Source: a virus. Taken from it: a DNA stretch of 24,969 nt. A program made the translations under genes and the position numbers. Position 1 is the stretch's first letter. Every line of letters starts with the position of its first letter. Below are positions 1,850 through 24,969 of the stretch, in pieces. The stretch covers positions 1 through 24,969 of IMG/VR virus record IMGVR_UViG_3300032093_000783; one strand, written 5' to 3'. The notes below the pieces were generated by a model. The model saw nothing but the letters and a program-made list of their open reading frames with translations, made no database searches and was not told where the DNA came from.

Positions 1850-3750
1850 CATATAACACACCTTTCAGCACTGTAGGCTACATTACATATAAAAGAACAT
1901 ACGCAAGGAGATTAGAAGAAGGCAATCCGAAGTCTAAAACAGAAGAATTTACCGATACAGTTGAAAGGGTTATTAAAGCCGCTAACGATCAGTTAGGCTG
2001 TAACTTTGACGCTGACGAGCAAGAGCGTCTACGGAAGTATTTAATGGAATTGAAAGGCACTGTTGCTGGACGATTCCTGTGGCAAATGGGGACAGACACA
2101 GTTGGTCGCTTAGGGCTGGCTAGTTTGCAGAACTGTGCATTCACCGTTATTGATCAACCTGTCCGTCCTTTCACATGGGCGATGGACTTGCTGATGCTTG
2201 GCTCTGGCGTTGGCTATAACATTCAGAGGCAACATGTTGATAAACTTCCTTCGGTCAATGCTGATTTTAGCGCTCCTACTCGTGTTACTACCGCTGATGC
2301 TGATTTTATTGTGCCTGACTCCCGTGAAGGGTGGGTCAAACTTCTCGGCAAGACGCTCAAAGCGGCGTTTCTAGCGGATACGAATCCTACCTTTACCTAT
2401 AGCACCATCCTAGTGCGTGGTCGTGGTGCGGCTATTAAAGGCTTTGGTGGCACTGCTTCTGGTCCTGAAGACTTATGTGATGGCATTGCTAAGATTAGTA
2501 ACATCCTTGAGAAGCGTAAAGGTAAGAAACTACGCCCTATCGATTGCTTAGACATCATGAACATTATCGGTTCTATTGTCGTTGCTGGCAATGTACGCCG
2601 TTCTGCTCAGATTGCTATCGGTGATCCTGACGATGTAGAGTACTTGCTTGCTAAGCGTTGGGACATGGGGAACATTCCATCATGGAGAGCAATGTCGAAT
2701 AACAGCGTTGTATGTAACGATATTAAAGACCTTCATGAGTACTTCTGGGATGGCTATGAGGGCAAAGGAGAGCCTTACGGACTTATCAATCTGAAACTCT
2801 CTCGTAAGATTGGTCGCTTAGGCGAGACCGATTATCCTGATCCAGATGTCATGGGATACAACCCTTGTGCAGAGCAATCCTTAGCTGCTTATGAGACTTG
2901 CTGTTTAGCAGAAGTATATCTGCCTAACATCGAGAGCAAAGAACAGTTATTAGATGTTTGCCAATTACTGTACCGCATCAACAAGCATAGCCTTGCACTG
3001 CCTTGTCATCTCAAAGAGACAGAAGACATTGTTCACAAGAATATGCGGATGGGTATTGGTGTAACAGGTGTATTACAGGCAACAGAAGAGCAACGTAGCT
3101 GGTTAAATGAGACTTATCGCCGTCTGCGTGAGTTTGACTTTAAGTACAGCCATGCACATAACTTCCCTGAGTCGGTAAAGCTCACCACTGTGAAACCAAG
3201 TGGGACTTTGTCGTTGCTTCCGGGAGTTACTTCAGGATGTCATCCAGCATATTCACAATACATGATTCGTCGTATTCGTATTGCTGCAGATCATCCTTTG
3301 GTGCAAGTATGTCGTGAACATGGCTATCCTGTCGAATATCAGCGTCATTTTGATGGTTCTGAGGATCACAGCACGATGGTTGTATCATTCCCATTCTGCT
3401 ATCCTGAGGGTACTAAGATTGCTGCTGAGATGACCGCTATCGATCAGTTGGAAGTAGTTAAGTGGTTACAGGCTAACTGGTCAGACAATAGCGTATCCTG
3501 CACTGTGTACTATCGTAAGGAAGAATTGCCTGAGATTCAGAAGTATTTAGCAAAGAACTACAAGAACAATCACAAGTCTTTGTCATTCTTGCTACACAAT
3601 GAACACGGCTTTCACCAAGCACCTTTGGAGGAGATTACTAAAGAAGCGTATGATGCTTTGGTAGCTTCGACACAACTGATTACTCATGTTGATGAAGCGT
3701 TGTTTGATGGTGGCGACGAGTGTTCCAGCGGAGCTTGTCCAGTCAAATGA
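1846..3750 (+). CDS. nrdJ: Adenosylcobalamin-dependent (class II) ribonucleoside-triphosphate reductase
   Basis: A 634-aa enzyme that reduces ribonucleotides to deoxyribonucleotides using a B12-derived radical. It looks like the monomeric RTPR type of Lactobacillus leichmannii. Residues visible: the first redox-active cysteine in LQNCAFT (C97); the NVRRSAQIAIGD block (249-260); N339-P-C341-A-E343, carrying the thiyl-radical cysteine with its Asn and Glu partners; the second redox cysteine in ETCCLAEVYLP (C352 or C353); VKPSGTLSLLPGVTSG; and the C-terminal shuttle pair C626-x4-C631 (CSSGACPVK). All catalytic cysteines are present, so the enzyme should be active. It is about 100 residues shorter than RTPR (739 aa), so part of the allosteric insertion or peripheral elements is probably reduced. 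The host must supply or salvage cobalamin. The start ATG overlaps the upstream stop, and the stop overlaps the start of a 44-aa gene. Confidence 0.95.
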   Translation: MTYNTPFSTVGYITYKRTYARRLEEGNPKSKTEEFTDTVERVIKAANDQLGCNFDADEQERLRKYLMELKGTVAGRFLWQMGTDTVGRLGLASLQNCAFTVIDQPVRPFTWAMDLLMLGSGVGYNIQRQHVDKLPSVNADFSAPTRVTTADADFIVPDSREGWVKLLGKTLKAAFLADTNPTFTYSTILVRGRGAAIKGFGGTASGPEDLCDGIAKISNILEKRKGKKLRPIDCLDIMNIIGSIVVAGNVRRSAQIAIGDPDDVEYLLAKRWDMGNIPSWRAMSNNSVVCNDIKDLHEYFWDGYEGKGEPYGLINLKLSRKIGRLGETDYPDPDVMGYNPCAEQSLAAYETCCLAEVYLPNIESKEQLLDVCQLLYRINKHSLALPCHLKETEDIVHKNMRMGIGVTGVLQATEEQRSWLNETYRRLREFDFKYSHAHNFPESVKLTTVKPSGTLSLLPGVTSGCHPAYSQYMIRRIRIAADHPLVQVCREHGYPVEYQRHFDGSEDHSTMVVSFPFCYPEGTKIAAEMTAIDQLEVVKWLQANWSDNSVSCTVYYRKEELPEIQKYLAKNYKNNHKSLSFLLHNEHGFHQAPLEEITKEAYDALVASTQLITHVDEALFDGGDECSSGACPVK

Positions 3751-3881
3751 TGATAAACTTATACTTTATTACTGGGTTCAGCGTAGGATTTGAGTATGTT
3801 CCTGACTTTGATGAAGAATCCCATCTCGCTATCGATTTGGGAATCATCAGAATCATGTTCAGTAGACCTCACGACGACTGA
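3747..3881 (+). CDS. Small phage protein, 44 aa, function unknown
   Basis: Hand translation gives a 44-residue protein starting MMINLYFITGFSVGFEYVPD and containing HLAIDLGIIRIMFSRP. The ATG (3747) overlaps the RNR stop TGA as ATGA, continuing the coupling pattern of the operon; a second ATG follows immediately at 3750. Small phage proteins with a pattern of FITGF-x-x-GFE followed by a hydrophobic IDLGIIRI stretch are familiar from nucleotide-metabolism regions of other phages, but no function is known to me. It is the last gene before the convergent terminator. The family resemblance is from memory and untested. Confidence 0.62.
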   Translation: MMINLYFITGFSVGFEYVPDFDEESHLAIDLGIIRIMFSRPHDD

Positions 3882-3926
3882 CGCTGCTGATTCACCTAGT
3901 ACCCAGAATTGCATAATTCGACTTTC

Positions 3927-3953
3927 ACCCCCGCTTCGGCGGGGTTCTTTTTT
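3927..3953 (+). terminator. Rho-independent terminator of the + strand operon
   Basis: A perfect 6-bp stem, CCCCGC (3929-3934) and GCGGGG (3939-3944), closes a TTCG tetraloop, the very stable C(UUCG)G type. TTCTTTTTT follows on the + strand. It lies 48 bases after the 44-aa gene and stops the rightward operon where it meets the leftward late operon. In the opposite direction there is no T-run after the hairpin, so it looks one-way. Confidence 0.92.
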
Positions 3954-3995
3954 GTTACAAAGTGTCAATAAATGTTGATAAATACCGACATTATA

Positions 3996-4430
3996 TTACA
4001 CGAAATTCCTAGTACCAGCTTTATCAATAATTAGGGCTTGTCTACGAGGCTTGTCAGAAGTAGCGTTAGGAACGCTTATATGCGTCCAAGAGCCGAATTC
4101 TTCGATGATTTGGTCAAAGGGTATGTCTGAAGCCAAACACGCCTCTACGACCTGTTTAGGGGTCATTCCGGGGACTCTTAAATCAGCAGCACAACCTAGC
4201 CTATGCTGGCTAGTGTCCTTGCTACCGACAGAGTCATTGACTGGTTTAGACCTAAAGCCTGAGTTAATCAGGATAGGCTTGCCTAAAAGGGTTCTAACTT
4301 GCTCAAGCAAGGCTGCCAATCGAGTCAGATTAGCAACCTCGGTAGCGTTAGGGGTATTATCTAAGTTCTTACGCTCTGCTACTTCAGAGTGAGTTAGTTC
4401 TTCTAAGGTGAAATTAGGGCTTAGGTTCAT
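3996..4430 (-). CDS. Endolysin, peptidase M15-like (L,D/D,D-carboxypeptidase fold)
   Basis: A 144-aa zinc peptidase of the M15A_3 type used by phages to cut peptidoglycan peptide cross-links at lysis. Visible features: an N-terminal LSPNFTLEELTHSEVAER block common in these enzymes, INSGFRSKPVNDSVGS (55-70), zinc ligands H76 and D83 in SQHRLGCAADL (H-x6-D), and H117 in WTHIS. All three metal ligands are present. The length is normal for a single-domain phage endolysin. There is no signal peptide, so release should need the adjacent holin. It is the last gene of the leftward late operon, and its start overlaps the holin gene end by 17 bp, consistent with a lysis cassette. Confidence 0.9.
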   Translation of the reverse strand: MNLSPNFTLEELTHSEVAERKNLDNTPNATEVANLTRLAALLEQVRTLLGKPILINSGFRSKPVNDSVGSKDTSQHRLGCAADLRVPGMTPKQVVEACLASDIPFDQIIEEFGSWTHISVPNATSDKPRRQALIIDKAGTRNFV

Positions 4431-4830
4431 CTTTTTTATCCTTCTTCATATCCATTATCTTCTCCAGCGTACGTCCGCCGAAATAGAAAGACATAATCAA
4501 CATTCCCCATTGACCTAGCAGTTCAACGTAGTTATTGTTTACTTCGATGTCCCATGCAGACATCGTAGCGAATGCTGAATAGACCATAAGAATAAACACT
4601 AACGTCATAGGTCGTATATTCTTAGACAACCAGCTATCACTAGCCATGTCTGCTTCGTGTCTCTTAGTGAGTTCTTGTGCCTCAATGTTATCAGCCTGTA
4701 ACTCAGCTAGTTTGCCTTCTTGTTGCATCTGCAGCAACTCTTTCTGAGCCTTTGCTTTAGCTTCAGGATCAGGAATGAATTTATCTAGGACTTTCATCCC
4801 AACATCGAATAGTGCCATTAATGGTAACAT
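4414..4830 (-). CDS. Holin, GTA/3TM holin family
   Basis: A 138-aa protein matching the 'holin of 3TMs' type (GTA_holin family). There is an amphipathic N-terminal helix, a charged helix at 21-60, then DSWLSKNIRPMTLVFILMVY (65-84), a first membrane helix at about 73-93, and a second at about 102-119 in LLGQWGMLIMSFYFGGRTLEKI. A lysine/aspartate-rich cytoplasmic tail ends it. The role is to permeabilise the inner membrane so that the adjacent endolysin reaches the wall. The chosen start (ATG 4830) shares one base with the upstream TAA and has a GGGGGT element about 9 nt upstream; an internal ATG at 4818 is possible. The overlap with the endolysin gene supports coupled expression. Confidence 0.85.
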   Translation of the reverse strand: MLPLMALFDVGMKVLDKFIPDPEAKAKAQKELLQMQQEGKLAELQADNIEAQELTKRHEADMASDSWLSKNIRPMTLVFILMVYSAFATMSAWDIEVNNNYVELLGQWGMLIMSFYFGGRTLEKIMDMKKDKKDEPKP

Positions 4831-5282
4831 TATTGTTTATACCCCCAAGTTAGATACCAAGCAATGACCGCAGCCACTGCATAGCACATGAACATTGCTC
4901 TACGAACCTTTGCCAAATCTTGTTTAAACTCTCTAGTAAGCTCATTGTCTTGTTTCTCTATCTTTTGTTTAATGGATTCGATTTCAGACCAGCGTTTAGC
5001 ACCATGCTTCTTAATGAAATCAGCCTTGACTTTAGCTTCTTCAATACGGATGGTTTCTTGGCGTTGCCATTCCATCATTGCTCTCTTGAAATACTGCTCT
5101 TTAAAGACCTGTGCTTCTCTTATATGTCTTTTACGCTCTAGGTCTTTCTGCTGTGCTACTGCTGCAGCGTCCTTCTGTACATCGGTAATACTCTTAGTGA
5201 TGGACTTACTAGCCTCTCGACTAGCATCCATACTACCTGTTACGGATTTTGCTCCTTCGATAAAACCAAATTGGTCAGACAT
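4830..5282 (-). CDS. Coiled-coil protein with C-terminal membrane anchor, unknown
   Basis: A 150-aa protein. Residues 20-125 are highly charged and alpha-helical, with long runs of Lys, Glu and Gln suggesting a coiled coil. A single hydrophobic segment follows at about 129-146 (AMFMCYAVAAVIAWYLTW), ending in the short tail GYKQ. There is no N-terminal signal peptide, so it looks like a tail-anchored membrane protein with a cytoplasmic coil. It sits directly upstream of the holin (1-bp overlap), so a lysis-timing or membrane role is possible, but the gene before it is an ejection-type virion protein and it could equally be virion-associated. It does not have the N-terminal anchor and periplasmic coil of a classical i-spanin. 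I do not recognise the family. Confidence 0.7.
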   Translation of the reverse strand: MSDQFGFIEGAKSVTGSMDASREASKSITKSITDVQKDAAAVAQQKDLERKRHIREAQVFKEQYFKRAMMEWQRQETIRIEEAKVKADFIKKHGAKRWSEIESIKQKIEKQDNELTREFKQDLAKVRRAMFMCYAVAAVIAWYLTWGYKQ

Positions 5283-5298
5283 GGAATCATATTCTTAA

Positions 5299-7581
5299 TT
5301 ATTGTTCTTCAGGCTGAGTTGCCATTTCAGTTGCTGCTCTAATTGTCATGAAACGATTAAACTCATCACGCATCTCAGGAGTCAGACGAGCCATGAACGC
5401 ACCTACAATTTGCTTAGATTTATTAGCAGGAACCCCTTCAATAAATGCAGCCAGTTTACGAGGATCAAGCATCATTTCAGCAGCAATACGATTAATATCT
5501 TCGTTAGCATCTTTCTTTAAAGCCTTTAATACCACATTGGTAATTAACGCTGCACGATTTAACAAGTTAGGTAATTCTGCACCGCTTTCTAGTGTTTCAA
5601 CATTAGACTTTGCTGCAAGGGCTTGTGCTTTAGCATCACGTTGTACATCAGCAAGTACACGATTAACAGAAGCGACTTGATCTTTAGTTAAAACTTGTTC
5701 TAGCTTCTGGAAACGAGCTTGACCAGTAGAGGTCTTAATGGTTTGAGCTGCATTCTGAACAGCGTTAGCGAATACACCGGCTCTTTCTTTGTCTCCAAGC
5801 GAAGTACGCAATTTAGCTTCTAATGCTTGACCAATCTCCATTTGGTTAATCTTTTCAGATGCTTGTTCATATGTCTTCAAGTAACGAGTCCAGCTACCGG
5901 GATCTTCTTTAGTAGCACCGATTGACTTATTAATAGAATTGTCAATATAACTCTTTAGATTAGTACTATATCGGCTTAGCAATTTCTCATCAAAAGTACC
6001 GGTTTCACCTGCATTCTTACGCAAGATATTACCTAGATTCTTACGGATGCCGTACAAATCAGCAGAATTGATTATTCCATCTTGATTACTGAAACGCTGT
6101 ATTTCATCACGGATTTCGCTCAAAGAACGACGAATTAAATCAGAAGTTCTTGCTTCACCGGGACGGGTCAATAGTGTATCAATCTGATTAGTAATTTCTG
6201 TTGTTCGTAAAGGAAAGAATCCATTATCAGATAAACTCTGTAATTGAAAGTTCTTAAAATCTAGCTCAGCTTGACGTTGCTGTGCTGTATTACGAGCTGT
6301 TTGTGCGCCTTCTAAGTTACCAACGACACGCTGGTAGTTCTGACTAAACGATGGCGATACACGAGGAAAACCCGGAACAGGAAAGAATTGACGAGATAAG
6401 GCTTGTTGTTGAGCGCCTTCGGTCTCTAGCATTCCTGCAACACGAAGAGCCTGTCCTTTACTTTGATACTTACCAGCAATTTCTTGTTCTAGTCTTGCGC
6501 CAATGTCTCCAGCTAAATTAGCTTGTGACAATGCTTGTTCCCGTAATGGAGTCGTTATAGCCTCACGCTGTGCTTTAGCGGCAGCTAAGGATGCATCATC
6601 ACCGCCAATAGCACGAATTTCTGCTAAACGAGCAGCTTCTTGTTCAGCTTCTCTGCCAGCAAACTGAGCCGAAATACCACGCTGAGGCACACGCTCAAGA
6701 CCACGCTGATATGCCGCTAAAGCTGTTGCTTCAGGAATGTCAGCTACTGCTTGAGCTGCGGTAGGACGAGAACCAGCAACAATTTCTTCTGCTCCTCGTA
6801 AAGAAGCCACAATCTCAGCTTGTTTATCTTTTGTAAGCCCTTTAAGATAGTCACGAAGAACTTCAATACGTCCTGACTCTGTTAATGGCTTTCCTAAATC
6901 TTTTAATACTTTACCGACTTTACCAGCAGTTTCAACCCCGCCTGAAATAAGACCACCAAAGAATGCTCCAGCGCCTAGTTGTTTAAACTTTTCTTCAAGA
7001 TAATTATCGGTATCAACTACTGGCTGGACACCACCAAATAATGTACCAACAGCAGCGCCTTCAGCAATTCTACCAGCAGCCGTTGGAGCCGATGGAACAG
7101 GAGCAAGACGGTTAACCGGACTAAGCAGCGCACCTCCTAATTGAACAAAGTCAAATCCCTCACTTCCTTGTCTTGCTCGTCCTTCTTGAGTAGCTTTTTC
7201 GTATTCTTTAACGACTTCTCTAGCACCGGTTTTAACTTTCTCGCCAAACACTCCAGTTTCGGCTAAAAGCTGATTGATACCCAATAATGGATCAACAATA
7301 GCTCCTTTAGCAAATCGTGCAATAGGAGACCCGGGACCGACCATCTGATCAATACGACGAGCTGTTTCTGTTGGTGTGTTTCCGCTAAAGCCAACATCTT
7401 CAGGCGAAGACGGAGCCATTTGTTCTGCAGTATATTCTACAGGAGCGGCTGGCTGTCTTGTAGCTTGTTGTGGGCTTGCTTGTAATTGTCGAGCAATCTG
7501 AGCTAATCGTCTTGCGTCTTCTACATTACCAGCAGCATCAGCATTACGCAATGCTGTCATTACTTGTTCATAAGTAGCCAT
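5299..7581 (-). CDS. Large internal virion / DNA-ejection-type protein
   Basis: A 760-aa Ala/Gln/Glu-rich protein. The N-terminus, YEQVMTALRNADAAGNVEDA followed by RRLAQIARQL, is a short helical motif found at the start of several environmental phage internal virion proteins. Residues about 85-215 contain Gly/Ala-rich hydrophobic stretches (FAKGAIVDPLLGINQLL, AAVGTLFGGVQPVV, LGAGAFFGGLISGGV) that could insert in membranes. The rest is long helical sequence rich in Arg and Gln. Size, composition and position as the last large virion gene before lysis fit an ejection protein carried in the head or core that helps form the DNA conduit across the envelope. No lysozyme or transglycosylase motif is evident. 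The start ATG 7581 overlaps the upstream stop by one base. Confidence 0.65.
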   Translation of the reverse strand: MATYEQVMTALRNADAAGNVEDARRLAQIARQLQASPQQATRQPAAPVEYTAEQMAPSSPEDVGFSGNTPTETARRIDQMVGPGSPIARFAKGAIVDPLLGINQLLAETGVFGEKVKTGAREVVKEYEKATQEGRARQGSEGFDFVQLGGALLSPVNRLAPVPSAPTAAGRIAEGAAVGTLFGGVQPVVDTDNYLEEKFKQLGAGAFFGGLISGGVETAGKVGKVLKDLGKPLTESGRIEVLRDYLKGLTKDKQAEIVASLRGAEEIVAGSRPTAAQAVADIPEATALAAYQRGLERVPQRGISAQFAGREAEQEAARLAEIRAIGGDDASLAAAKAQREAITTPLREQALSQANLAGDIGARLEQEIAGKYQSKGQALRVAGMLETEGAQQQALSRQFFPVPGFPRVSPSFSQNYQRVVGNLEGAQTARNTAQQRQAELDFKNFQLQSLSDNGFFPLRTTEITNQIDTLLTRPGEARTSDLIRRSLSEIRDEIQRFSNQDGIINSADLYGIRKNLGNILRKNAGETGTFDEKLLSRYSTNLKSYIDNSINKSIGATKEDPGSWTRYLKTYEQASEKINQMEIGQALEAKLRTSLGDKERAGVFANAVQNAAQTIKTSTGQARFQKLEQVLTKDQVASVNRVLADVQRDAKAQALAAKSNVETLESGAELPNLLNRAALITNVVLKALKKDANEDINRIAAEMMLDPRKLAAFIEGVPANKSKQIVGAFMARLTPEMRDEFNRFMTIRAATEMATQPEEQ

Positions 7582-8768
7582 TATCTTCCTTGCTCAGATG
7601 TCGGGGTAAGATATTTAGTAATTAAATCATTATCTGAAGTTGATATACCAGCAGCTGGTTTAGCTTTTAAATCAATTCTACCGCTAGATTTAACTGTTGG
7701 TTTAAATCCAAATTGATCTGAGGTACGATTGATAGATCTTTCAAGTTTAGCTTTAGTATCATTAATCCAAGTAGCTAAAGCATCTGGATCGCTATATCCG
7801 GGGAAGTTCTTCATAGCTGCTCTCATGTCAGCATCAGAAGCAGATCCGGGAGGAAGACTTTCAATTTGTTGCATTAATTGAGATAAGGCAATCTTAGACT
7901 GTGCTGTTAAAGTCTTTTTAGTAGCTAAGCTCTTAACTTCGTTAGACTTAGTAGTCCAATCAACAAAAGATTCTGAATTTTTAACATCTTGTGGAGTAAT
8001 TTGATTTAAAGTATCCAATAAATCTTGAGCGCCTTTAAACTCTTGGCGAATTGGTTTCATCTCAGCCGGACCGTAAATTGTTCCATTAATGTCACGATAG
8101 GCTCCTCCTTTACCGACAGCACCGGCGGTTCCTATAGCACCGGCTTCTGCTTGAGCAGCTGCTAATTTAGCATTACGATCCATAGAAGCCTGAATCACAC
8201 GAGCTTGTTGATCTGGGGAGCCAAATTGACGGAATACAGCTAAATATTGAGCTTCTGTTGCGTTTGGAGGTAAGGCTGCTAATGCTTCTCTTAATTTATC
8301 TTCACGCTCAACTGTCTGCTGTGATCTAGCAATATCTGTTTGTGTTTTTTGAATGTCTGTACGAGTTTTTTGAAGATTTAATACGTCTTTTTCTCGTTGG
8401 TCTGCAATTGCAGCAGCAGCGGTAGAAAACTCTCCGTATCCTTTAGCTGCTAATGCTCTAGAATATTGACGAATTCCTTCTGGATTTGTTAAATCAAACT
8501 GAGTCCGCATCTGTGAAACATCTCTGAGCTTAACTAACTCTGGATCTTCAACACCCAACATACCCGCAATTGCGCCAACACCTCTGCCAATTAATTGCCC
8601 TTCTTGAGCAGCTTGTTGATAAAAAGGAGCTAATGACGGGGACATCATAGTTCCCGGAGCAGAAGATTGACGAGCAACCGCTAGTGTATCAAGATAGTCT
8701 CTACGATTACGCTCAGATAAATACGATTCTGGCGAAGTACCAAATAAACTGTTTACGATTTCAGCCAT
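7581..8768 (-). CDS. Putative internal virion protein
   Basis: A 395-aa protein, mostly helical and rich in Ala, Gln, Ser and Lys. It has a short hydrophobic patch, GRGVGAIAGMLGVED (about 62-76), and a heptad-like central region (about 130-165, repeated KTRTDIQKTQTDIARSQQ) typical of a coiled coil. No enzymatic motif is visible. It is the middle of three consecutive genes encoding Ala/Gly-rich proteins between nozzle and lysis genes, the place where short-tailed phages usually encode three ejection proteins. A structural/ejection role is inferred from this position and composition rather than from a recognised domain. Confidence 0.6.
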   Translation of the reverse strand: MAEIVNSLFGTSPESYLSERNRRDYLDTLAVARQSSAPGTMMSPSLAPFYQQAAQEGQLIGRGVGAIAGMLGVEDPELVKLRDVSQMRTQFDLTNPEGIRQYSRALAAKGYGEFSTAAAAIADQREKDVLNLQKTRTDIQKTQTDIARSQQTVEREDKLREALAALPPNATEAQYLAVFRQFGSPDQQARVIQASMDRNAKLAAAQAEAGAIGTAGAVGKGGAYRDINGTIYGPAEMKPIRQEFKGAQDLLDTLNQITPQDVKNSESFVDWTTKSNEVKSLATKKTLTAQSKIALSQLMQQIESLPPGSASDADMRAAMKNFPGYSDPDALATWINDTKAKLERSINRTSDQFGFKPTVKSSGRIDLKAKPAAGISTSDNDLITKYLTPTSEQGR

Positions 8769-8786
8769 GATTATTCCTGTATATAA

Positions 8787-9869
8787 TTAAGGTGCGGATC
8801 CATAGTAGCCGCCTGAATAACTACCAAATCCAGCGTCTGTCGGGGCGTAAGGAACTGAACTATAACCGCCACCAAACCCACCGCCGATACCGCCTCCGGG
8901 GAACAATCCTCCAAACCATTCGCCTACTTTAGGATTCTGGAATATTGTACCAAGAGTTTGATTCAATGCAGTATTTCTTGCAGCAGTGATACCAGCACCA
9001 GCAACATTACCAGCTAAGCCTGTCTGAGCAGCAGCTAAGCCACCTTCAGCTAGTAATCGACCAGCATTAGCACCAGCCGCAGCAGAACGACCACCAAGCT
9101 GAGCCCCAATGTCTAATGGTGCTTGAGCAAGTTCTTCTAATGCAGCGACTTGGCTGTAAGGAGTAGATACTGGAGAATATGCTGTTGAGAGTAAACCTTG
9201 ACCAAACTTAATCTGCTCTCTAGCAGCTTGTTCAGCTTCAATACCAAGTTGCAGGTCACGAGTAGCAATTGCATTGTAATATGCCTGTAGTTCAGGATTA
9301 GAAGCAGCTAAACCACCGCCTTGACCGACTGCTAAACCACCACGACCAGTAGTAAGCAAGTTAGAACGAATACGTCCTAATGCCTGTTCTTCACCGGGAG
9401 CCAATAAGGCTCTTTGTTGATAATAATATCTACTCTGTGCTTCTTGTGGTGTTTCAGATATATATCCACGACCTAACGATAGTAGACGCTCTGTGTCGGC
9501 TCTACCGGCTAAAGCATTTTGAGAATAGAAGTTTTGAAGTGTTAATAACTCTTGAGAAGGAGTATATCCGGCACTGGTTAAGTATCCTTGGTCGTTAAAA
9601 CCAAATCGAGATTTACCAAAACGAGAACTAATACCAACAGGTCTAAATTTTGCAGCTTCAGCAGCCTGTGCTGCGGCAGCGGCTTGTTGTGCAGCAGCAT
9701 CACTGTAGTAGCCCTGTACTTGTCCGCCACCGCCACCGCCTCCGCCTCCTAAAGCACCACCTAGTCCACTACCAATAGAGTAACCAGCAGCGGCTCCAGC
9801 AGGACCTCCAAAAACCCCGCCAATGATTCCACCACCAATACCTCCAACTACTGACGCAGCTTTACCCAT
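8787..9869 (-). CDS. Gly/Ala-rich internal virion protein
   Basis: A 360-aa protein. The N-terminus (about 1-50) is a glycine-zipper-like membrane-prone segment (VGGIGGGIIGGVFGGPAGAA) ending in eight consecutive glycines, followed by an Ala/Gln-rich helix (about 58-74). The middle is helical with aromatic residues, and the C-terminus is again glycine-rich (FPGGGIGGGFGGGYSS) ending in Tyr/Gly/Ser repeats. Such Gly-rich termini are typical of small ejection proteins in short-tailed phages, comparable in position and composition to T7 gp14 or P22 gp7, though homology cannot be shown here. It shares one base with the upstream gene at 9869. Confidence 0.62.
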   Translation of the reverse strand: MGKAASVVGGIGGGIIGGVFGGPAGAAAGYSIGSGLGGALGGGGGGGGGQVQGYYSDAAAQQAAAAAQAAEAAKFRPVGISSRFGKSRFGFNDQGYLTSAGYTPSQELLTLQNFYSQNALAGRADTERLLSLGRGYISETPQEAQSRYYYQQRALLAPGEEQALGRIRSNLLTTGRGGLAVGQGGGLAASNPELQAYYNAIATRDLQLGIEAEQAAREQIKFGQGLLSTAYSPVSTPYSQVAALEELAQAPLDIGAQLGGRSAAAGANAGRLLAEGGLAAAQTGLAGNVAGAGITAARNTALNQTLGTIFQNPKVGEWFGGLFPGGGIGGGFGGGYSSVPYAPTDAGFGSYSGGYYGSAP

Positions 9870-10120
9870 TATAAACCTCTGCTATAAATATGATACATTT
9901 GACCGTCTCCACCTAAAAAGGGTTTTTCAAATTTAAACCCTATAGACCTTCCAAACTTTGCTAACTTATTATTTCTTATTTCAACAAACGCAAGCAATTT
10001 AGTATTGTTTAATTTCTGTAAGGTATTTAAATCGATTAAATATTGTTTCTTAATCTTTGTTGTCCACTTATTAATATCTGTATGAAACCATAAAAACCCT
10101 TGATAGAGTTCTAAGTACAT
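9869..10120 (-). CDS. Small GNAT-like phage protein
   Basis: An 83-aa protein starting MYLELYQGFLWFHTDINKW and ending FKFEKPFLGGDGQMYHIYSR-GL. The pattern 'KLAKFGRSIGFKFEKPFL..DGQ..HIY' resembles the C-terminal half of GNAT-fold proteins that phages encode next to virion genes; T7 gp13 is a known internal virion protein with a GNAT-like relation. No complete acetyl-CoA loop is visible, so enzymatic activity is doubtful. The frame can be extended to 10252, but that would overlap the fibre-stub gene by 101 bp and give an unrelated N-terminus. I chose ATG 10120, which has AGAGA 10 nt upstream and begins shortly after the upstream gene stops at 10152. Confidence 0.6.
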   Translation of the reverse strand: MYLELYQGFLWFHTDINKWTTKIKKQYLIDLNTLQKLNNTKLLAFVEIRNNKLAKFGRSIGFKFEKPFLGGDGQMYHIYSRGL

Positions 10121-10151
10121 TACATAGTTATCTCTTATAACTACCGGTACT

Positions 10152-10352
10152 TTAGTAGGTTCCACCGTCAATGGTTCCGCCTGACATTGTTCCAGTAAAG
10201 CTAGGATTATTTGTATCAATCTTGGTTTGGACTGCCGTAGCAATATTATCAAACTCTGTGTTGATTTCAGTACCTTTAACTAACTTAGCTGGATTACCGG
10301 TGAATAATGTATCCTTAACTGCAAAGTTTGTTGTTTTTGTATAATTAGACAT
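10152..10352 (-). CDS. Short fibre-stub protein (tail fibre N-terminal type)
   Basis: A 66-aa protein, MSNYTKTTNFAVKDTLFTGN then PAKLVKGTEINTEFDNIATA, which matches the N-terminal virion-attachment segment of many phage tail fibres ('KTTNFAxKD..xGNxAKxVKGTEINTEFNNIATA'). Unlike a normal fibre it stops after one short collagen-like or triplet segment and ends SGGTIDGGTY. The long fibre-trunk gene at 16199-17734 ends in the same ten residues. It may be a minor virion adaptor or a fibre gene reduced to its attachment domain. It shares one base with the nozzle stop codon. Confidence 0.7.
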   Translation of the reverse strand: MSNYTKTTNFAVKDTLFTGNPAKLVKGTEINTEFDNIATAVQTKIDTNNPSFTGTMSGGTIDGGTY

Positions 10353-12196
10353 TATCTAATCCTTCCTTGTTTTACATAACAATCCATCTTCTGAACTGAG
10401 ATTTCTGAACCCACAATCATAGCTTCAATACCAAGTTGAAGTACTCTTCCTGTACCGCCTACTTGAGTACGGGTATTGTCAAATACAACACCAGCGGTAT
10501 ACTCAGCAATTCCATACTCAGCAATTCCGTATTCTGCTAAAGATGGGTTTGCTAAAGTATATACTTGACTTTGATACGATTCACTATAATCAAAAGCCCA
10601 CTTTAGTGATACACTAACGCCACGACCACCAATGAATGTAATACCAATACTTTTTAGTATCTTTTCTACCGTTGGTTGATTAAAGTCAAACCAATTAGTA
10701 TAATAACTCATGCGATAAGAAGCACTATTATCGGTATAGCCTGTGTAGTTACCAATATAGCCATCTTTACCTAGATACAACAAACGACCAACTGTCGGAA
10801 AGAATGCAGTAATCTTGGTGTACCATGTTGTTGTTCTTGACGCACCATTCTCTAACACACCACGAGCATCAAAGCAATATACGATATTCGATGTTGGGAA
10901 AGAGATCGCATAGAATGCGTCTTTTTCGTAATAGACACTCTTTACTTGCTTTGCTGTCTCAGCGTCAATATACTGCATCAAATCATCACGAACATTAGCA
11001 CTGATGTCCCTAATCGGTGAGGATTTCTCCTGAATCGTACGCAATAACGACCGTACACCACCGTTAGACAGGAATACTAAGTCTGTTCCTGCAAGTGCTA
11101 CGGAATCTCGTGCAATGCAACCAATTCCTTTAATTAAATCCTGCAATGCAATATTTGTAATATCATCTGCATTGTTATACAAGACAATGTGATGTTTACA
11201 GAATATTACTAAATAACCGTTGTGTGCTGCTAGTGATACAATCGGATCTCCATCTGGTACAATATCAGCAATGTTTAACGAACCTGCTGAACCGCCTGTT
11301 AATGCTCCACCGTTGTTCAGATCGCTAAAGTATATTGTCTGTCTATCGTTGACAATATCAGCATACCAAAGACGACCGTAAGCTGCTAGAGCAATGTTGG
11401 GGGTAAATGTGTCCGTAGTATAGCCTGACGGTACACTTCCAACATCGCCTAATCGTTGCAACCCGTAGCTACCCTCATGAGTGTGCTGTCCGGGTGTATC
11501 AGCTAAAGTCAATACATCGTTTATTGTATAACCAGTACCGTCATTAGTCATTGTTAGTGTTAGTACGGCAGTTCCACTAACAGAAGCAACTGTAAAAGTA
11601 GCTCCAGAACCAGTACCACCTGTTACAGTAACGGTATCGCCTACAAACCAGTTAGAACCGCCAGTAGTTACTGTATGAGCGCTAATTTTACCGCCACCAG
11701 TTACGTTCGTAACCGTAATCGTTGCACCAGTACCGACTAAAGGTAATTTGTGATACACTAATACTGGATGTCCTGCTTGAGCTAAATAACCGTGAGCAGA
11801 AGCATTCTTGCCTGTACTATAAGGCTGCACACCAATACTCCAATGATCGTCTGTAATCGTATACGACAGATTGGCAGTATTTGTACTGTTTCTTACAGCT
11901 AATTGTGTTAATGTTGTGGTGCCGCTAAATAACTTATTATTACCTGCAGTTATGACAACATTACCATCTTCTTTAACAATCTCAACGATTGTACGAACAG
12001 AAGCAGTGCTTAAATCAGCACTGGTTGCATTTACAGGACTCCAGCCCTTTCTAGCACCAATACGACCAAACTTATCAATTACACAGTTTTCTGCGATGGT
12101 CGCATAACCTGATTCAAGGGTTACACTCGAATCCTGAGTGTTAACACCTTTGAACCCCGGCGCTACAATCGACGAGGTAACAATTTGTTCAGCCAT
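10352..12196 (-). CDS. Tail nozzle / stabilisation protein (T7 gp12- or P22 gp10-like beta-propeller)
   Basis: A 614-aa protein that should form the hexameric nozzle closing the short tail. The N-terminus, APGFKGVNTQDSSVTLESGY (12-31), and ENCVIDKFGRIGARKGW (36-52) are a widespread signature of podoviral nozzle/stabilisation proteins. The body has propeller-like beta repeats such as YGRLWYADIVNDRQTIYFSD. About residues 156-237 look like an inserted Gly/Thr-rich domain (FVGDTVTVTGGTGSGATFTV and GTGYTINDVLTLAD). Near the C-terminus a tandem peptide AEYGIAEYGIAEY (554-566) matches the 'W/Y-x-x-x-x' repeat region common in nozzle proteins. It lies right after the adaptor gene, with one shared base at 12196. 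Confidence 0.82.
   Translation of the reverse strand: MAEQIVTSSIVAPGFKGVNTQDSSVTLESGYATIAENCVIDKFGRIGARKGWSPVNATSADLSTASVRTIVEIVKEDGNVVITAGNNKLFSGTTTLTQLAVRNSTNTANLSYTITDDHWSIGVQPYSTGKNASAHGYLAQAGHPVLVYHKLPLVGTGATITVTNVTGGGKISAHTVTTGGSNWFVGDTVTVTGGTGSGATFTVASVSGTAVLTLTMTNDGTGYTINDVLTLADTPGQHTHEGSYGLQRLGDVGSVPSGYTTDTFTPNIALAAYGRLWYADIVNDRQTIYFSDLNNGGALTGGSAGSLNIADIVPDGDPIVSLAAHNGYLVIFCKHHIVLYNNADDITNIALQDLIKGIGCIARDSVALAGTDLVFLSNGGVRSLLRTIQEKSSPIRDISANVRDDLMQYIDAETAKQVKSVYYEKDAFYAISFPTSNIVYCFDARGVLENGASRTTTWYTKITAFFPTVGRLLYLGKDGYIGNYTGYTDNSASYRMSYYTNWFDFNQPTVEKILKSIGITFIGGRGVSVSLKWAFDYSESYQSQVYTLANPSLAEYGIAEYGIAEYTAGVVFDNTRTQVGGTGRVLQLGIEAMIVGSEISVQKMDCYVKQGRIR
10500..10541 (+). repeat. 15-bp tandem repeat, 2.8 copies, inside the nozzle gene
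   Basis: On the + strand TACTCAGCAATTCCA is followed by TACTCAGCAATTCCG and a diverged partial third copy, TATTCTGCTAAA. It encodes the AEYGI-AEYGI-AEY peptide repeat near the nozzle protein's C-terminus. The first two copies differ at one base, suggesting recent slippage or selection to keep the repeat. Confidence 0.85.
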
Positions 12197-19601: not shown

Positions 19602-19850
19602 TTACGCAGTATCTTTGTCTCTATTGAGCTTACGCTCTTGTGCCAACTTCTCAGCTCTTCGTTTCTCCCACTTACTCGTTGCACTAGGAAAAATCCCAGT
19701 AAACGGTTCGAGGTTGATACGAGGTGTTGATAATTGGCGATGTGCGGTCAAGCCACACTCCGAACAAGTAACGCTAACGGTATCAATTTCCACTAGTTTT
19801 TCTTGTTCATGTCCGGCTTCGCAAAGGAAGTCGAACAACCTACGAGGCAT
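19602..19850 (-). CDS. Zinc-ribbon (FmdB-type) phage protein
   Basis: An 82-aa protein, MPRRLFDFLCEAGHEQEKLV then EIDTVSVTCSECGLTAHRQL and STPRINLEPFTGIFPSATSK. A short zinc ribbon is formed by C10, H14, C29 and C32, as in FmdB-type putative regulatory proteins. The following 'RI.LEPFTG.FP.AT.KWEK.RAEKLAQERK' stretch is conserved in phage versions found between portal and scaffold genes. A structural or assembly role is possible; a transcription role is unproven. It overlaps the upstream gene by 11 bp, suggesting coupling. Confidence 0.78.
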   Translation of the reverse strand: MPRRLFDFLCEAGHEQEKLVEIDTVSVTCSECGLTAHRQLSTPRINLEPFTGIFPSATSKWEKRRAEKLAQERKLNRDKDTA

Positions 19851-20097
19851 CTGAAGCGTCTCCCGACGAGTTCTGAAGTTGCTCGTAAGCCTTTGCTGAA
19901 GTATCTCGTAAGGTTAGCACCCATAAAATGATGTCTAATTGTCCTTTACGGAAAAACAGCGTTTTTTCATCTGGAACGCTCATCAAGTTATCAACGGCTT
20001 TCTGCATTTCTTTTAGGTCGGCGACTAAATCTAACCAACCCTGCGTTGACATCATTGAAAAACGATCGTCATAATACTTTTGAAGTTCTTTGTCCAC
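19840..20097 (-). CDS. Conserved phage protein next to portal, unknown
   Basis: An 85-aa protein, MDKELQKYYDDRFSMMSTQG then WLDLVADLKEMQKAVDNLMS and FFRKGQLDIILWVLTLRDTS. It is helical with no recognised catalytic motif. Similar small proteins recur between portal and scaffold genes in environmental podoviruses, but the function is unknown to me. The start is GTG 20097, with AGGAG 6-7 nt upstream. It is the first gene behind the internal late promoter at 20149-20177. Confidence 0.75.
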   Translation of the reverse strand: MDKELQKYYDDRFSMMSTQGWLDLVADLKEMQKAVDNLMSVPDEKTLFFRKGQLDIILWVLTLRDTSAKAYEQLQNSSGDASDAS

Positions 20098-20120: not shown

Positions 20121-20140
20121 GTGTTGTTAAATTACAACAC
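20121..20140. promoter_or_regulatory. Palindromic operator-like site GTGTTGT-N6-ACAACAC
   Basis: GTGTTGTTAAATTACAACAC has perfect 7-bp inverted arms around a 6-bp spacer. It begins about 9 bases downstream of the -10 of the internal promoter, over the likely transcription start and early leader. Three near-identical sites occur at 24819-24902. It could be a DNA operator, or a hairpin at the 5' end of the transcript. Confidence 0.65.
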
Positions 20141-20148
20141 TGTGGCTG

Positions 20149-20177
20149 ATATTACCACAGTTTTGTTAAAATGTCAA
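20149..20177 (-). promoter_or_regulatory. Sigma70-type promoter for capsid genes
   Basis: On the - strand TTGACA (20177-20172), a 17-nt spacer, then TAATAT (20154-20149). The -35 is a perfect consensus; the -10 matches 4 of 6. An inverted repeat CTGTGG-N9-CCACAG (20140-20160) straddles the -10. It lies between portal and the 85-aa gene and would boost scaffold and capsid expression. Confidence 0.75.
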
Positions 20178-22156
20178 GCACTTTTTGATTGTTTTTGCAA
20201 CATTTGTAAACTAGCGATACGCTCGTTACTCTTAATATCCTCTTCTTTGAGGGCTAGTTCAGCAATCTTGGCTCTTTGCTCAAACTCTCCGCTGGTGTTT
20301 TGACCCCTAATATTCTGGCTTAGACCGCTAATTACCTTCGCTTGGGTCTCGGCTGGCATCAATTGAGTCTCAACTACATCTTTCTGAGCAGAAGCGTTGT
20401 TTCTAACGGCTTCGGACTGTAGTTTAGCGATTTGAGCCTGTGCTGCAGCCACTTCAAGCTGGGTTTGAACTGCTTGTAATTCCTGTTGTTGTGGGTTAGG
20501 TTGCATCATTTGATCCAAAGTAGCTTCCATTTCAAGGCGATTTGGTAAGCTAGAGCTGGCAATAATGCCTTTGAGAAGCATTGGCAATACAGGCGTATTA
20601 GGTCCAAGAGTCTGTAGCAACGCAATAAGCTGTTGTTGCTCGTATTCACGGGCAATAATGCCTAATGTAGCTGTTGGAATGAACTTGAGGTCCACTGTTG
20701 GATAGCGCTCAGGGTCAAACTGCATGAAACGATAGGCAGCTTTCTTAATAAACGGAACTAAGAAGTCCTCTTGGAAGTTCATGAGTGTCCGCTTATACTT
20801 CTTAATGATTCCAGCAACCGACATCGAGGTTTGTGGGTAATCACGGGTAGAAGCTGTTGGCTGTCCAGCCGCATCGACAGTACCAGTAGCTTGTAGTAAC
20901 ATCTTTTCAAATACAGAGCTGGTTGTCAAGTTAGCAGGATCGGTATTGCCAAACTTAAACGGAACCATAATTTCATTTGGATTACCGTTGGTAAGGATTG
21001 CTTTACCGGGTTTGACTTCAAACTTAGCGCCACGAGGCAGACGAGTAGCATCCATCGCTACCATTGGAGCTGTAGTCAATGCTAGGCTGTCTAAATGCGC
21101 CCGTAACTGAGCATCAATAGCCTTTTGCATATTGTAGGCTTTTTCGACAGTGCCACGACCAAAGAAACGACCGGGAACGCTATCGTCTTGATAAGCGATT
21201 ACAGGACGATCCTTCATCATGTACGGATTCTTTTCTGCCTTGAGCAGAGTTCCGCCATTGGCGATCACCACGATGCACTCGACTAAATCGCTGTATTTGT
21301 CAGCAGTCGTGTCATCTGGGAAGAGATCAACAACTTCACCCTCTTCATTTTCTAACTGCTCGATATACTCACGAGGAGCAAGACCGTAGTAAGTCAATAG
21401 CAATACTTTATCGTCTTGGAACTGGGTAACTTGTTGAGTAGGCTCTAAGTCGGTATCTTCTGGAGCTTGTTGAATATCTACTTTGCGGTAGATACCTTTT
21501 TCCATTCCTTCAACAACCTTGTGAATCGACACATACTTCTCGACTGCAATTCCCATTGCGTCGTCAATCGTAGTAGCATTTGGGTCAATGAGGAAGTTTT
21601 TAGGATTGACAGGATTTAACTTAACGCAAGTGTATTCCTTTTCCATAATACCGTATGCAGCAGTGCCATCAGGCATTGGCATCGTAGTAGGAATCATCTC
21701 AGGCTTACGTTGGACAAGAATCTCACCGATACCTGTACCGTAAATCTCAGCCATTAACTCGATCTGCGAGATGGCTTTACGAGCATTATCTTTTTCTAGG
21801 TCTTCTTTAAGTTGTCGTTTAAGTATTTCAACATCAAGTTTGTTTGCGTCGCCCAAGTCGTCAGCAATGTCAAACCATTCTCCATTGCCGAATATGGCTT
21901 CGCATACCTCTGCATGTCTTGTTTCCACAGCTTGTTGAGTCGCTGGGGAGATAATACGGCTTCGCTCAGATTCACGAGTGCGGTCTTCGGCAGACCATTG
22001 TCCTCGAAAAATGCGTTCATATTCTTTCCAATCCTCTAAAAAGTTGCTATCACGCCAGTCTCTCCAGCGATCGGTATGGGATACAACGAAGTCTACGATC
22101 TCTATGTCTGACTGAGTCGGTTCTTCAAATACGTTGTTGTTCATATTTTCAGCCAT
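20174..22156 (-). CDS. Portal protein (podovirus/P22-like type)
   Basis: A 660-aa protein forming the dodecameric DNA entry ring of the head. Visible: WRDWRDSNFLEDWKEYERIF then RGQWSAEDRTRESERSRIIS and PATQQAVETRHAEVCEAIFG near the N-terminus (about 30-100), a familiar start of P22-like portals; GIGEILVQRKPE; PVIAYQDDSVPGRFFGRGTV then EKAYNMQKAIDAQLRAHLDS, typical of the portal stem region; and a C-terminal, Gln/Ala-rich coiled-coil 'barrel' at about 545-660. It lies downstream of the terminase genes as usual. AAGGAAAAAC precedes ATG 22156. The last codons contain the -35 element of the downstream promoter. Confidence 0.88.
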   Translation of the reverse strand: MAENMNNNVFEEPTQSDIEIVDFVVSHTDRWRDWRDSNFLEDWKEYERIFRGQWSAEDRTRESERSRIISPATQQAVETRHAEVCEAIFGNGEWFDIADDLGDANKLDVEILKRQLKEDLEKDNARKAISQIELMAEIYGTGIGEILVQRKPEMIPTTMPMPDGTAAYGIMEKEYTCVKLNPVNPKNFLIDPNATTIDDAMGIAVEKYVSIHKVVEGMEKGIYRKVDIQQAPEDTDLEPTQQVTQFQDDKVLLLTYYGLAPREYIEQLENEEGEVVDLFPDDTTADKYSDLVECIVVIANGGTLLKAEKNPYMMKDRPVIAYQDDSVPGRFFGRGTVEKAYNMQKAIDAQLRAHLDSLALTTAPMVAMDATRLPRGAKFEVKPGKAILTNGNPNEIMVPFKFGNTDPANLTTSSVFEKMLLQATGTVDAAGQPTASTRDYPQTSMSVAGIIKKYKRTLMNFQEDFLVPFIKKAAYRFMQFDPERYPTVDLKFIPTATLGIIAREYEQQQLIALLQTLGPNTPVLPMLLKGIIASSSLPNRLEMEATLDQMMQPNPQQQELQAVQTQLEVAAAQAQIAKLQSEAVRNNASAQKDVVETQLMPAETQAKVISGLSQNIRGQNTSGEFEQRAKIAELALKEEDIKSNERIASLQMLQKQSKSA

Positions 22157-22651: not shown

Positions 22652-23911
22652 TTAGTATCCGCTTATAACATCCAATACTTCGTAGTCATCGTCGTCATAA
22701 TCCTGTTGATAGTTCGATACCGCTAACTGATCAACATAAGCCAATGCGTCGACTAAGTCGTCATGCACATTAGCGGTTGGGAAGAGGAGCAACTGATCTA
22801 CTAACTCTCTCCAATCTTCGTCTTCGTTTAAGGTGATTCTGCCATGCTCGAATCGACCTTGTAGCGCCCAAGCAATTCGCTCAGTCTTCTTTTTGTTGCC
22901 ATGCGTCAAATCTGTGATGTGAAAGTACACATTATTCTTACGCATTAAATCATTGAGGTAAGGAGCAACAGCATTCTTTAGCGCCCCTCGCTCGATACCT
23001 ACAGCCATCGGTTGATACTCGTGTACAAGTCGAAGTATCTTTGCTGCTGTCTCTTTAATGTCCCAACGACCATGTACAATCTTTTCAACGAACCAATCTC
23101 CTTGAGGTTCTACTTTTACAATTGCGATAGCGGATTCGTCTAAGCGTTTCTTTGAAGCACCAGCGTTCTTCGCCACCTCTTCAAATCCTGCCAAATCGAT
23201 AGCGATAACATAGTCCCCGTACTGAGGGTCTTCACCATAACGGATCCACTCTTCTTTAAAGATCTCCTGCCCCGCATTGTCAAAAGATGCTTCGTACTCT
23301 TGCTTGAACGCAAAAGACGACAGCGTTTTTCTTGCAGCGTCCACCTCTTTCGGGTCAATCGTCTCATTATCTTTTGTAGTAAAGTGCCAAGCCTTCCATT
23401 CATGATCTTCTGCTTCAAAGCCTAGCTTATACATCTCATAGAACCAATTCCGCCCTGACGGAGTCGAGATGAACATCGCTTCACCTTTACGGTCTGAGAG
23501 CGATGCTCGGATAATCTTTTCCCAAGTGTCCTGCTTAATAAACGCACACTCGTCTAGGACTGCGTAATACAAACTCAGACCACGAAGGGTATCACTGTTA
23601 TCTGCACCACGAACATGAATCTTACGACCATTCACTAAGGTGATGTCCAGATTGTTAATGTGTGCCGACTTAATCACTGGCTTACCAATCTCTAGGAGAC
23701 TGTCCCAGATGATTTGTCTACTTTGACCGAGCGTCGGGGAGACATAAAGTACGGCGCTCCCCTCCGGAGCTTCTAATGCTTTGATGATCAACATCATCGT
23801 TGCTAGACGACTCTTACCGCACCGCCGCCCGGCTGCTATTACTTTAAAGCGAGTCTTGTCCTTAAAGACATCTTGTTGCCATTTTAGCAACTGAAAGTTA
23901 AGACTCGTCAC
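22652..23911 (-). CDS. terL: Terminase large subunit
   Basis: A packaging ATPase-nuclease of 419 aa from GTG 23911. ATPase: Walker A AAGRRCGKS (26-34), a Walker B-like hydrophobic run YYAVLDE ending D120-E121, and motif III STPSGRNWFY (149-158). Nuclease: first acidic residue in VIAIDLAG (D239), then E308 in VGIERGA and the D384/D385/D388 cluster in VHDDLVDALAYVDQL. All key acidic residues are present. The frame extends to a GTG at 23923, but GTG 23911 has GAGG at 6 nt and begins MTSLNFQLLKWQQDVF, so I chose it. It overlaps the small terminase stop by 14 bp. It powers DNA into the portal and cuts the concatemer. Confidence 0.95.
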   Translation of the reverse strand: MTSLNFQLLKWQQDVFKDKTRFKVIAAGRRCGKSRLATMMLIIKALEAPEGSAVLYVSPTLGQSRQIIWDSLLEIGKPVIKSAHINNLDITLVNGRKIHVRGADNSDTLRGLSLYYAVLDECAFIKQDTWEKIIRASLSDRKGEAMFISTPSGRNWFYEMYKLGFEAEDHEWKAWHFTTKDNETIDPKEVDAARKTLSSFAFKQEYEASFDNAGQEIFKEEWIRYGEDPQYGDYVIAIDLAGFEEVAKNAGASKKRLDESAIAIVKVEPQGDWFVEKIVHGRWDIKETAAKILRLVHEYQPMAVGIERGALKNAVAPYLNDLMRKNNVYFHITDLTHGNKKKTERIAWALQGRFEHGRITLNEDEDWRELVDQLLLFPTANVHDDLVDALAYVDQLAVSNYQQDYDDDDYEVLDVISGY

Positions 23912-24329
23912 TATCGACCTCACCCATGTCTACGACATTGGCATCTACGCTAGGACTATTCAGCCCAGTGATGTTAATGCTAATCTGCGGTGTTTGACCG
24001 CTGTTTTTCGCCGCATCGAACATCGACAGCGGTAAGACACGATCGACACACATCTTCAATGCAGCGATTTGATCCTTATCATTTGGGTCTAATGCTTTGT
24101 GGATCAAAGTCTCAATAATCTTATCTCCGGAGGTGCCAAGCAATCTGGCTTTGAATTCAGCAATTCGTGCTGAGTCTCCGGCTGGTCTTCCGACCTTACC
24201 CCTATTACCCTTCTTCTTCGCCTCGATGTCCTTCTTTAGGGGACGACCTAACTTACGACGAACAATCTTAGGACGAGGCGGTTTAGTATCAACAACTTCA
24301 GTTATTACTTCGACAGAATCATTACTCAT
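23898..24329 (-). CDS. Terminase small subunit (probable)
   Basis: A 143-aa DNA-recognition subunit, inferred from position directly upstream of terL and from composition. The basic N-terminal part has two AT-hook-like 'GRP' motifs (KLGRPLKK, 27-34; KVGRPAGD, 46-53) inside a Lys/Arg-rich region. A helical centre follows (KARLLGTSGDKIIETLIHKA then PNDKDQIAALKMCVDRVLPL), and then a Ser/Thr/Asn-rich acidic tail. The helical part resembles phage small terminases that recognise the packaging start. The ATG (24329) has AGGAT about 11 nt upstream. It is the first gene of the late operon, about 190 bases after the promoter. Confidence 0.72.
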   Translation of the reverse strand: MSNDSVEVITEVVDTKPPRPKIVRRKLGRPLKKDIEAKKKGNRGKVGRPAGDSARIAEFKARLLGTSGDKIIETLIHKALDPNDKDQIAALKMCVDRVLPLSMFDAAKNSGQTPQISINITGLNSPSVDANVVDMGEVDSDES

Positions 24330-24389
24330 TGTGTCTTTTATCCTTTTTGGAAGACGATGTTGCGAAGCAACGGCTTTATTAACTGCTGT

Positions 24390-24412
24390 CTATAAAATCC
24401 AGCCTTCGGCTG
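24390..24412 (-). promoter_or_regulatory. Leader hairpin, attenuator-like
   Basis: On the - strand CAGCC-GAA-GGCTG is followed by GATTTTATA, a weak terminator-like shape in the 5' leader of the terminase transcript. A second 5-bp hairpin, GTTGC-TTC-GCAAC (24359-24371), follows it. Stems are short, so function is uncertain. Confidence 0.35.
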
Positions 24413-24523
24413 TACAATATAGGGTTTTCGCTATTGGAGAGGTTTCTATAGGAGAAGAATATTAATCATCCTATATCGCTGACGTATCACCCTAACGATT
24501 CGTCATAGTTCTATATAGTGCGA

Positions 24524-24552
24524 ACTATATCATACTTTTCTTAATTTGTCAA
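24524..24552 (-). promoter_or_regulatory. Sigma70-type late promoter for the virion operon
   Basis: On the - strand TTGACA (24552-24547), a 17-nt spacer and TATAGT (24529-24524) match the sigma70 consensus at 6/6 and 5/6. A palindrome ATATAGT-gcga-ACTATAT (24513-24530) covers the -10. The leader to the small terminase ATG is about 190 nt. Confidence 0.85.
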
Positions 24553-24584
24553 GTACTTTGTTGCTTATTTTACTCTGCAGACCA

Positions 24585-24633
24585 GCAGGGCTGTGCGGGA
24601 CTCCATAGGCTTGATAGGTCTCCGCAACCCTGC
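24585..24633. other. Long stem-loop in control region
   Basis: GCAGGG (24585-24590) pairs with CCCTGC (24628-24633). After an asymmetric internal loop (CTGT against AA), GCGG (24595-24598) pairs with CCGC (24622-24625), with GAC/GTC extending it over a bulge. No T-run on either side, so it is not an intrinsic terminator. It could be an RNA structure, an origin hairpin or a protein-binding site. Confidence 0.6.
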
Positions 24634-24660
24634 GACATAGTCCCTACGGTGCGCCGATTC

Positions 24661-24706
24661 TGTCTACGACTGTGTCCCTTTATTGTCTACTCTGTCCCTA
24701 TTTATT
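24661..24706 (+). repeat. Imperfect 23-bp direct repeat
   Basis: TGTCTACgacTGTGTCCCTT and, 23 bases later, TGTCTACtcTGTCCCTATTT share the TGTCTAC and TGTCCCT blocks. They lie in the gene-free region upstream of the late promoter. Confidence 0.5.
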
Positions 24707-24818
24707 TCTTCTTTTAATTTCAAAGACTTACATTGCAGTGCAATATAGTCCTTTTTTACTATTTTGTATACAGTAGCGCCTACATCATTATCTCATCACA
24801 GTCCAATACCCTCCCCCC

Positions 24819-24902
24819 ATGTTGTTTTTATACAACACTTTAGCGATAGTGTTGTTTCTACGCAACACTGTATAGATCATCAGTGTTGTTTTTATACAAC
24901 AG
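24819..24902. promoter_or_regulatory. Three operator-like palindromes in tandem
   Basis: Sites at 24819-24838 (ATGTTGTTTTTATACAACAC), 24849-24868 (GTGTTGTTTCTACGCAACAC) and 24883-24902 (GTGTTGTTTTTATACAACAG) share the arms GTTGT and (A/G)CAAC. Spacings are 30 and 34 bp, close to three helical turns, so a dimeric regulator could bind cooperatively. The arms equal those of the site at 20121-20140. Confidence 0.7.
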
Positions 24903-24945
24903 TCTGTGACGATAGCGATAGACTATTAAGAATCATTATCGATAG
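24844..24945 (+). repeat. Four CGATAG motifs, iteron-like
   Basis: CGATAG occurs at 24844, 24910, 24916 and 24940, in contexts TAGCGATAG, ACGATAGCGATAGAC and TCGATAGCGGG. They are interspersed with the operator palindromes. They may be replication-initiator iterons or regulator half-sites. Confidence 0.45.
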
Positions 24946-24969
24946 CGGGAATGTATGGGTCGATGATGC

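Follow-up and report, generated by a model that had tools for sequence, protein, structure and literature searches.

Three short palindromes at the right-hand end of a sequence from an uncultivated aquatic phage belong to a motif that recurs in many unrelated phages and upstream of outer-membrane-protein genes of Proteobacteria. Judging from the sequences, we consider it fairly probable that they are operators of a host-encoded dimeric regulator of the envelope, borrowed by the phages for the control of their own promoters. One operator common to host outer-membrane-protein genes and to many unrelated phages would be the new element here.

Layout of the phage and its relatives

The window, i.e. 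the whole stretch of DNA that was analysed, corresponds to the complete 24,969-bp IMG/VR record IMGVR_UViG_3300032093_000783, which probably covers only part of a larger phage genome. A late operon runs leftward in it and encodes the terminase large subunit (terL, 22652-23923, minus strand), the portal protein (20174-22156, minus strand) and the major head protein. The gene at 23898-24329 (minus strand) had no PHROGs match and, given its position before terL, likely encodes the terminase small subunit (terS). At the left edge of the window lie genes for a DNA-polymerase exonuclease subunit and a ribonucleotide reductase, both reading rightward.

For comparison, 80 related loci were collected through the terminase. 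In relatives of about 35-49 kb the early genes, which include those for a primase-helicase, DNA polymerase, single-strand-binding protein, exonuclease and reductase, go rightward from the control region and converge with the late operon; early genes just to the right of the window, which the original prediction made a condition, are thus present in the relatives. The nearest isolates, as assessed by the primase-helicase, are Pelagibacter phages (about 50 % identity), and the portal protein found only distant matches among isolates. As a clue to the host, a relative of the terminase was sought in bacterial genomes and none was found; tetranucleotide usage, compared on short sequences, did not favour Methylophilaceae. 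One related record of 49.4 kb (G001, loci L087-L089) has nearly the same late genes, in a run, at two places (about 1-12170 and 38503-49403). Either it is a mixed assembly, or it stems from a circle of about 38-40 kb and continues beyond the point where it began.

The operator array in the control region

The array comprises ATGTTGTTTTTATACAACAC (24819-24838), GTGTTGTTTCTACGCAACAC (24849-24868) and GTGTTGTTTTTATACAACAG (24883-24902), predicted palindromic operators with no assigned strand, each one base off GTGTTGT-N6-ACAACAC. Their coordinates and the start-to-start spacings of 30 and 34 bp agreed with those first proposed. The accompanying claim that the copies stand near whole helical turns fared worse, as the spacings amount to 2.9 and 3.2 turns, and whole-turn spacing was rejected as a property of the array since relatives have spacings of 17, 19, 30, 34 and about 50 bp, which are not conserved. 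With at most one mismatch to GTGTTGT-N6-ACAACAC there are four sites in the window and none in 60 dinucleotide shuffles; with at most three mismatches the window contains seven sites versus a shuffle mean of 1.4. The surrounding region (24330-24969) is, as expected, devoid of a credible gene, and neither the Rfam scan nor the tRNA scan found anything in the window. The array looks well suited to a dimeric regulator, which is indeed not encoded in the window.

Copy 1 is kept in relatives and the GTAGAA-type spacer of copy 2 recurs there. When up to two mismatches were allowed, 126 sites were found in the 80 relatives and the window, in comparison to four in the reversed sequence. The scan of relatives recommended by the original prediction placed the array at the same position, upstream of terS in the divergent early/late control region; in most close relatives the last control-region site precedes terL by about 860-1010 bp, and thus lies upstream of terS. 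Further sites occur behind the portal gene in relatives, and the TGTTGT site is missing from distant ones, for example L076 and L078. The three palindromes are, as predicted from sequence, a real and conserved operator array. The stronger claim that they form the main control switch of the phage is unproven, no good sigma70 promoter clearly adjoining the array within the window. The sigma70-type promoter of terS (24524-24552, minus strand; TTGACA at 24552-24547, 17 bp, TATAGT at 24529-24524) lies about 270 bp away. In a second clade (L044-L050) a palindrome is located a few bases upstream of the -35 motif of the terS promoter.

Two other elements were noticed in this region. A run of C at 24809-24818 (G on the late strand) abuts array copy 1, and in nearly all relatives the sequence AGGGGGG-A/T-GGGG on the late strand directly adjoins the last array operator. 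Between the array and the terS promoter (about 24570-24640, late strand) a conserved TGCGGAGACC...AGTCCCGCA pair is capable of forming a hairpin, both arms of which are changed in relatives; it had no Rfam match and is possibly a structured RNA or DNA element.

A fourth operator at the head-gene promoter

The original prediction recognised the three array copies but missed a fourth, GTGTTGTTAAATTACAACAC at 20121-20140 (no strand), which is the only perfect copy of GTGTTGT-N6-ACAACAC in the window. It is at this site, and not at the array, that an overlap of palindrome and promoter is clearest. A sigma70-type head-gene promoter (20149-20177, minus strand) consists of TTGACA (20177-20172), which is overlapped by the portal stop codon, a 17-bp spacing and TAATAT (20154-20149) with an upstream TGn. 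On the late strand the palindrome follows at about +2 to +21, and then a ribosome-binding site; the first gene behind the operator, of 85 aa (19840-20097, minus strand), is kept in relatives, as is the promoter itself. This layout was retained in 28 related loci, with the palindrome 8-9 bp past the -10 motif in 25 of them and overlapping the -10 motif in three; such an overlap was read in L054, L055 and L080. Among 12 distinct head-gene operator sequences the arms TGTTGT and (A/G)CAACA were invariant and the six middle bases varied, which is the behaviour of an operator. A role of the palindromes as promoters of a phage single-subunit RNA polymerase was rejected, since no such polymerase was found among the large early genes of relatives and the promoters found were sigma70-like.

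The same site at bacterial outer-membrane-protein genes

Searching about 85,000 genomes of bacteria and archaea for TGTTGTATARAAACAACA yielded 66 loci, of which nine had Methylophilaceae or Methylotenera in the title. The genes beside the loci were strikingly alike: ompW, porins, and mlaA following a photolyase-type gene. In Methylophilaceae, TGTTGT-N6-ACAACA is located 70-250 bp upstream of ompA, ompW, mlaA, porin and TonB-receptor genes. Summed over 120 Methylophilaceae genomes, exact arm matches numbered 106, versus 19 in the reversed control; the corresponding sums for 100 genomes from the whole order were about 31 and 18. Twenty-nine of the 38 loci inspected lay upstream of genes read as outer-membrane proteins, and most of the others were intragenic. 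Pfam confirmed OmpA, OmpW, MlaA, Porin_O_P, Porin_4, a KdgM-type porin and a TonB receptor, with three of ten proteins giving no match. In one genome of 1.4 Mb, genes of the porin, MlaA and TonB-receptor types are found behind all three of the exact sites and also behind TGTTGTTTTTTTGCAACA. The site is also present at porin-like genes of marine Alphaproteobacteria and at TonB receptors of Woeseiaceae, so that Alpha- and Gammaproteobacteria are represented too. In the few host outer-membrane-protein promoters that could be read, the offsets tend to 35-36 and 46 bp.

The same site in unrelated phages

The exact 18-mer was present in at least 119 viral stretches, and 46 of the 73 newly fetched viral loci had at most one protein match to this phage lineage. 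Phage genomes are mostly coding; of 76 sites in viral loci, 41 were intergenic, 24 intragenic and 11 at contig edges when genes of at least 60 aa were counted. Sixteen viral records of up to 367 kb contained 40 sites, versus none in the reversed control, many of these records having one site only and others several. The densest user seen was the L325 record (39,341 bp, G258), which contains TGTTGT-N6-ACAACA ten times in exact form and the reversed control not once. Isolated phages gave only partial, chance-level matches to the exact site, and a literature search on the motif and on such phage promoters found nothing relevant.

A good sigma70 promoter with its -35 motif 3-12 bp from the palindrome was found at 34 of 72 sites, in comparison to 1 % of random positions. 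The offsets from palindrome to -35 motif form two clusters, one at 5-9 bp and the other, about a helical turn farther away, at 13-16 bp. Such helical phasing suggests that RNA polymerase is contacted from one face of the DNA, which is the geometry of an activator.

NtrC-like sites next to the array

In relatives, sites resembling TGCACTATAAAGGTGCA lie on that side of the array which faces the early genes, at a distance of about 80-120 bp. The family TGCAC-N7-GTGCA gave 93 matches in relatives versus four in the reversed sequence; the examples L017:2503-2577, L013:8874-8921 and L081:4033 correspond to positions just right of the window end at 24969, and the window itself ends in the last three bases of the first TGCACTATAAAGGTGCA-like site. 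In Methylophilaceae the pattern TGCACY-N5-RGTGCA precedes glnA, amtB-like genes and a gene resembling ntrB. Since the phage sites share the pattern found at these genes, they are probably NtrC sites, a prediction that extends to relatives without the TGTTGT site, where they also occur. A canonical sigma54 -24/-12 promoter, TGGCACACTGTTTGCA, reading in the early direction, was found beside NtrC-like sites only in the control regions of the divergent loci L058 and L062, both of which lack the TGTTGT palindrome; none was found near the array in the clade of the window.

Candidate regulators

The regulator had been expected to be the product of a phage gene just to the right. Of the small early genes conserved in the relatives, however, those tested or read included none that was recognised as a helix-turn-helix gene. 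The presence of the same site at bacterial outer-membrane-protein genes and in unrelated phages points instead to the host. Ten streamlined Methylophilaceae genomes were searched for regulator families. A Crp/Fnr regulator was rejected, as none of the ten genomes had a protein over the PF13545 cut-off. Two or three OmpR-type response regulators were present per genome; among those read, one pair looks like OmpR/EnvZ and another like PhoB/PhoR. The OmpR/EnvZ pair is a candidate for the regulator by function: as in the OmpR regulation of porins, outer-membrane-protein genes would be controlled from upstream, and an OmpR/EnvZ-like pair is encoded in the site-carrying genomes. It is only a candidate since the sites of OmpR in E. 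coli are direct repeats arranged head to tail, whereas TGTTGT-N6-ACAACA is an inverted repeat.

NtrX resembles the proposed regulator in that envelope genes come under a dimeric regulator of the NtrC type, and the motifs GCA-N9-TGC and CAA-N2-5-TTG have been proposed for it (PMC7240162, PMC9223101). It was rejected because these motifs differ from TGTTGT-N6-ACAACA and the gene content does not fit: the HTH_8 proteins of the ten genomes are mostly a Fis-sized and one NtrC-sized protein, with extras in a few.

Proposed mechanism and alternative explanations

We suggest that a host-encoded dimeric factor sits at proteobacterial outer-membrane-protein genes and that the phage promoters have been placed under the same factor, one protein binding host and phage sites alike; in principle the two kinds of sites could be bound by different proteins. 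Such a regulator would activate from upstream, where site centres lie near -50, -60, -80 and -90, and would repress or act as a roadblock where the site overlaps the -10 motif or +1, as at the head-gene promoter. The three-site array may help to set the early/late timing. The regulator could, for instance, serve as a timer, holding the head genes down early and being diluted as copies of the phage DNA multiply.

An unlikely alternative is a repressor or early regulator encoded by the phage itself, with a control region of the lambda type and its gene farther right, among the early genes. The position of the array in the divergent control region, the overlap of an operator with the -10 motif or +1 of a strong promoter, and the existence of several small conserved early proteins without assigned function would all suit it. 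The conserved early proteins that were tested or read include no recognisable helix-turn-helix gene, however, and the same operator is present at bacterial outer-membrane-protein genes and in unrelated phages. We regard as still less probable that the phage copies are decoys, which soak up the host regulator of outer-membrane proteins and thereby alter the host surface (e.g. receptor porins) rather than phage genes. Several copies per phage genome and the occurrence of the site at porin-type genes speak for such titration, yet a decoy needs no fixed position or helical phase relative to phage promoters, both of which were seen, and many phages have only one site.

Two further explanations appear very improbable. 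The palindrome might work at the RNA level, either by terminating transcription or as a hairpin that protects the 5' end of the head-gene mRNA; the 20121 palindrome would lie at the very start of this mRNA. Terminators were rejected since T-runs are absent after the array and fourth sites; moreover, the palindrome overlaps the -10 motif in L054, L055 and L080 and lies upstream of the -35 motif in unrelated phages, the array retains variants with a C-A mismatch, such as TGTTGC-N6-ACAACA, and there was no Rfam match. The array could equally be imagined as iterons of a replication origin or as terminase-binding sites for packaging, being a set of repeats near terS, beside a conserved G-run and in a long conserved non-coding region. 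The sites found at head genes, early operons, promoters of unrelated phages and chromosomal genes argue against both functions.

A borrowed host operator remains the reading we prefer. In its widest form, in which a widespread proteobacterial outer-membrane-protein operator, served by a regulator not described before, was taken up by many unrelated aquatic phages at a fixed helical phase to their promoters, and NtrC-type sites were added in this lineage so that envelope and nitrogen state of the host are both read, it is put forward tentatively, as a possibility that we would not yet call probable. If the interpretation is correct, one 18-bp site ties many kinds of uncultivated phages to a regulator of bacterial surface proteins, which often serve phages as receptors. 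It would then predict the kind of host signal that times gene reading in phages not yet grown, indicate that bacteria which are abundant and streamlined in aquatic habitats possess an outer-membrane-protein regulon not described so far, and provide a promoter signature for the annotation of viral metagenomes.

Comparison with known systems

As in operator arrays of the lambda type, several similar palindromes are present in a control region between divergent early and late genes. The lambda repressor is encoded by the phage, beside its operators, whereas no such gene was recognised here and the site is common to bacterial genes. The nearest precedent is that of T4-like cyanophages, whose promoters contain sites for the host nitrogen regulator NtcA; each genome has several of them, and the phage genes thereby follow a response of the host (PMC3037559). 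The case described here is alike in that the same site is found at host genes and in phage promoters. It differs in the site, the hosts and the phages, and in that the regulator is known for the cyanophages; in contrast to the NtcA sites, the site described here is common to outer-membrane-protein genes and spans many unrelated phage groups.
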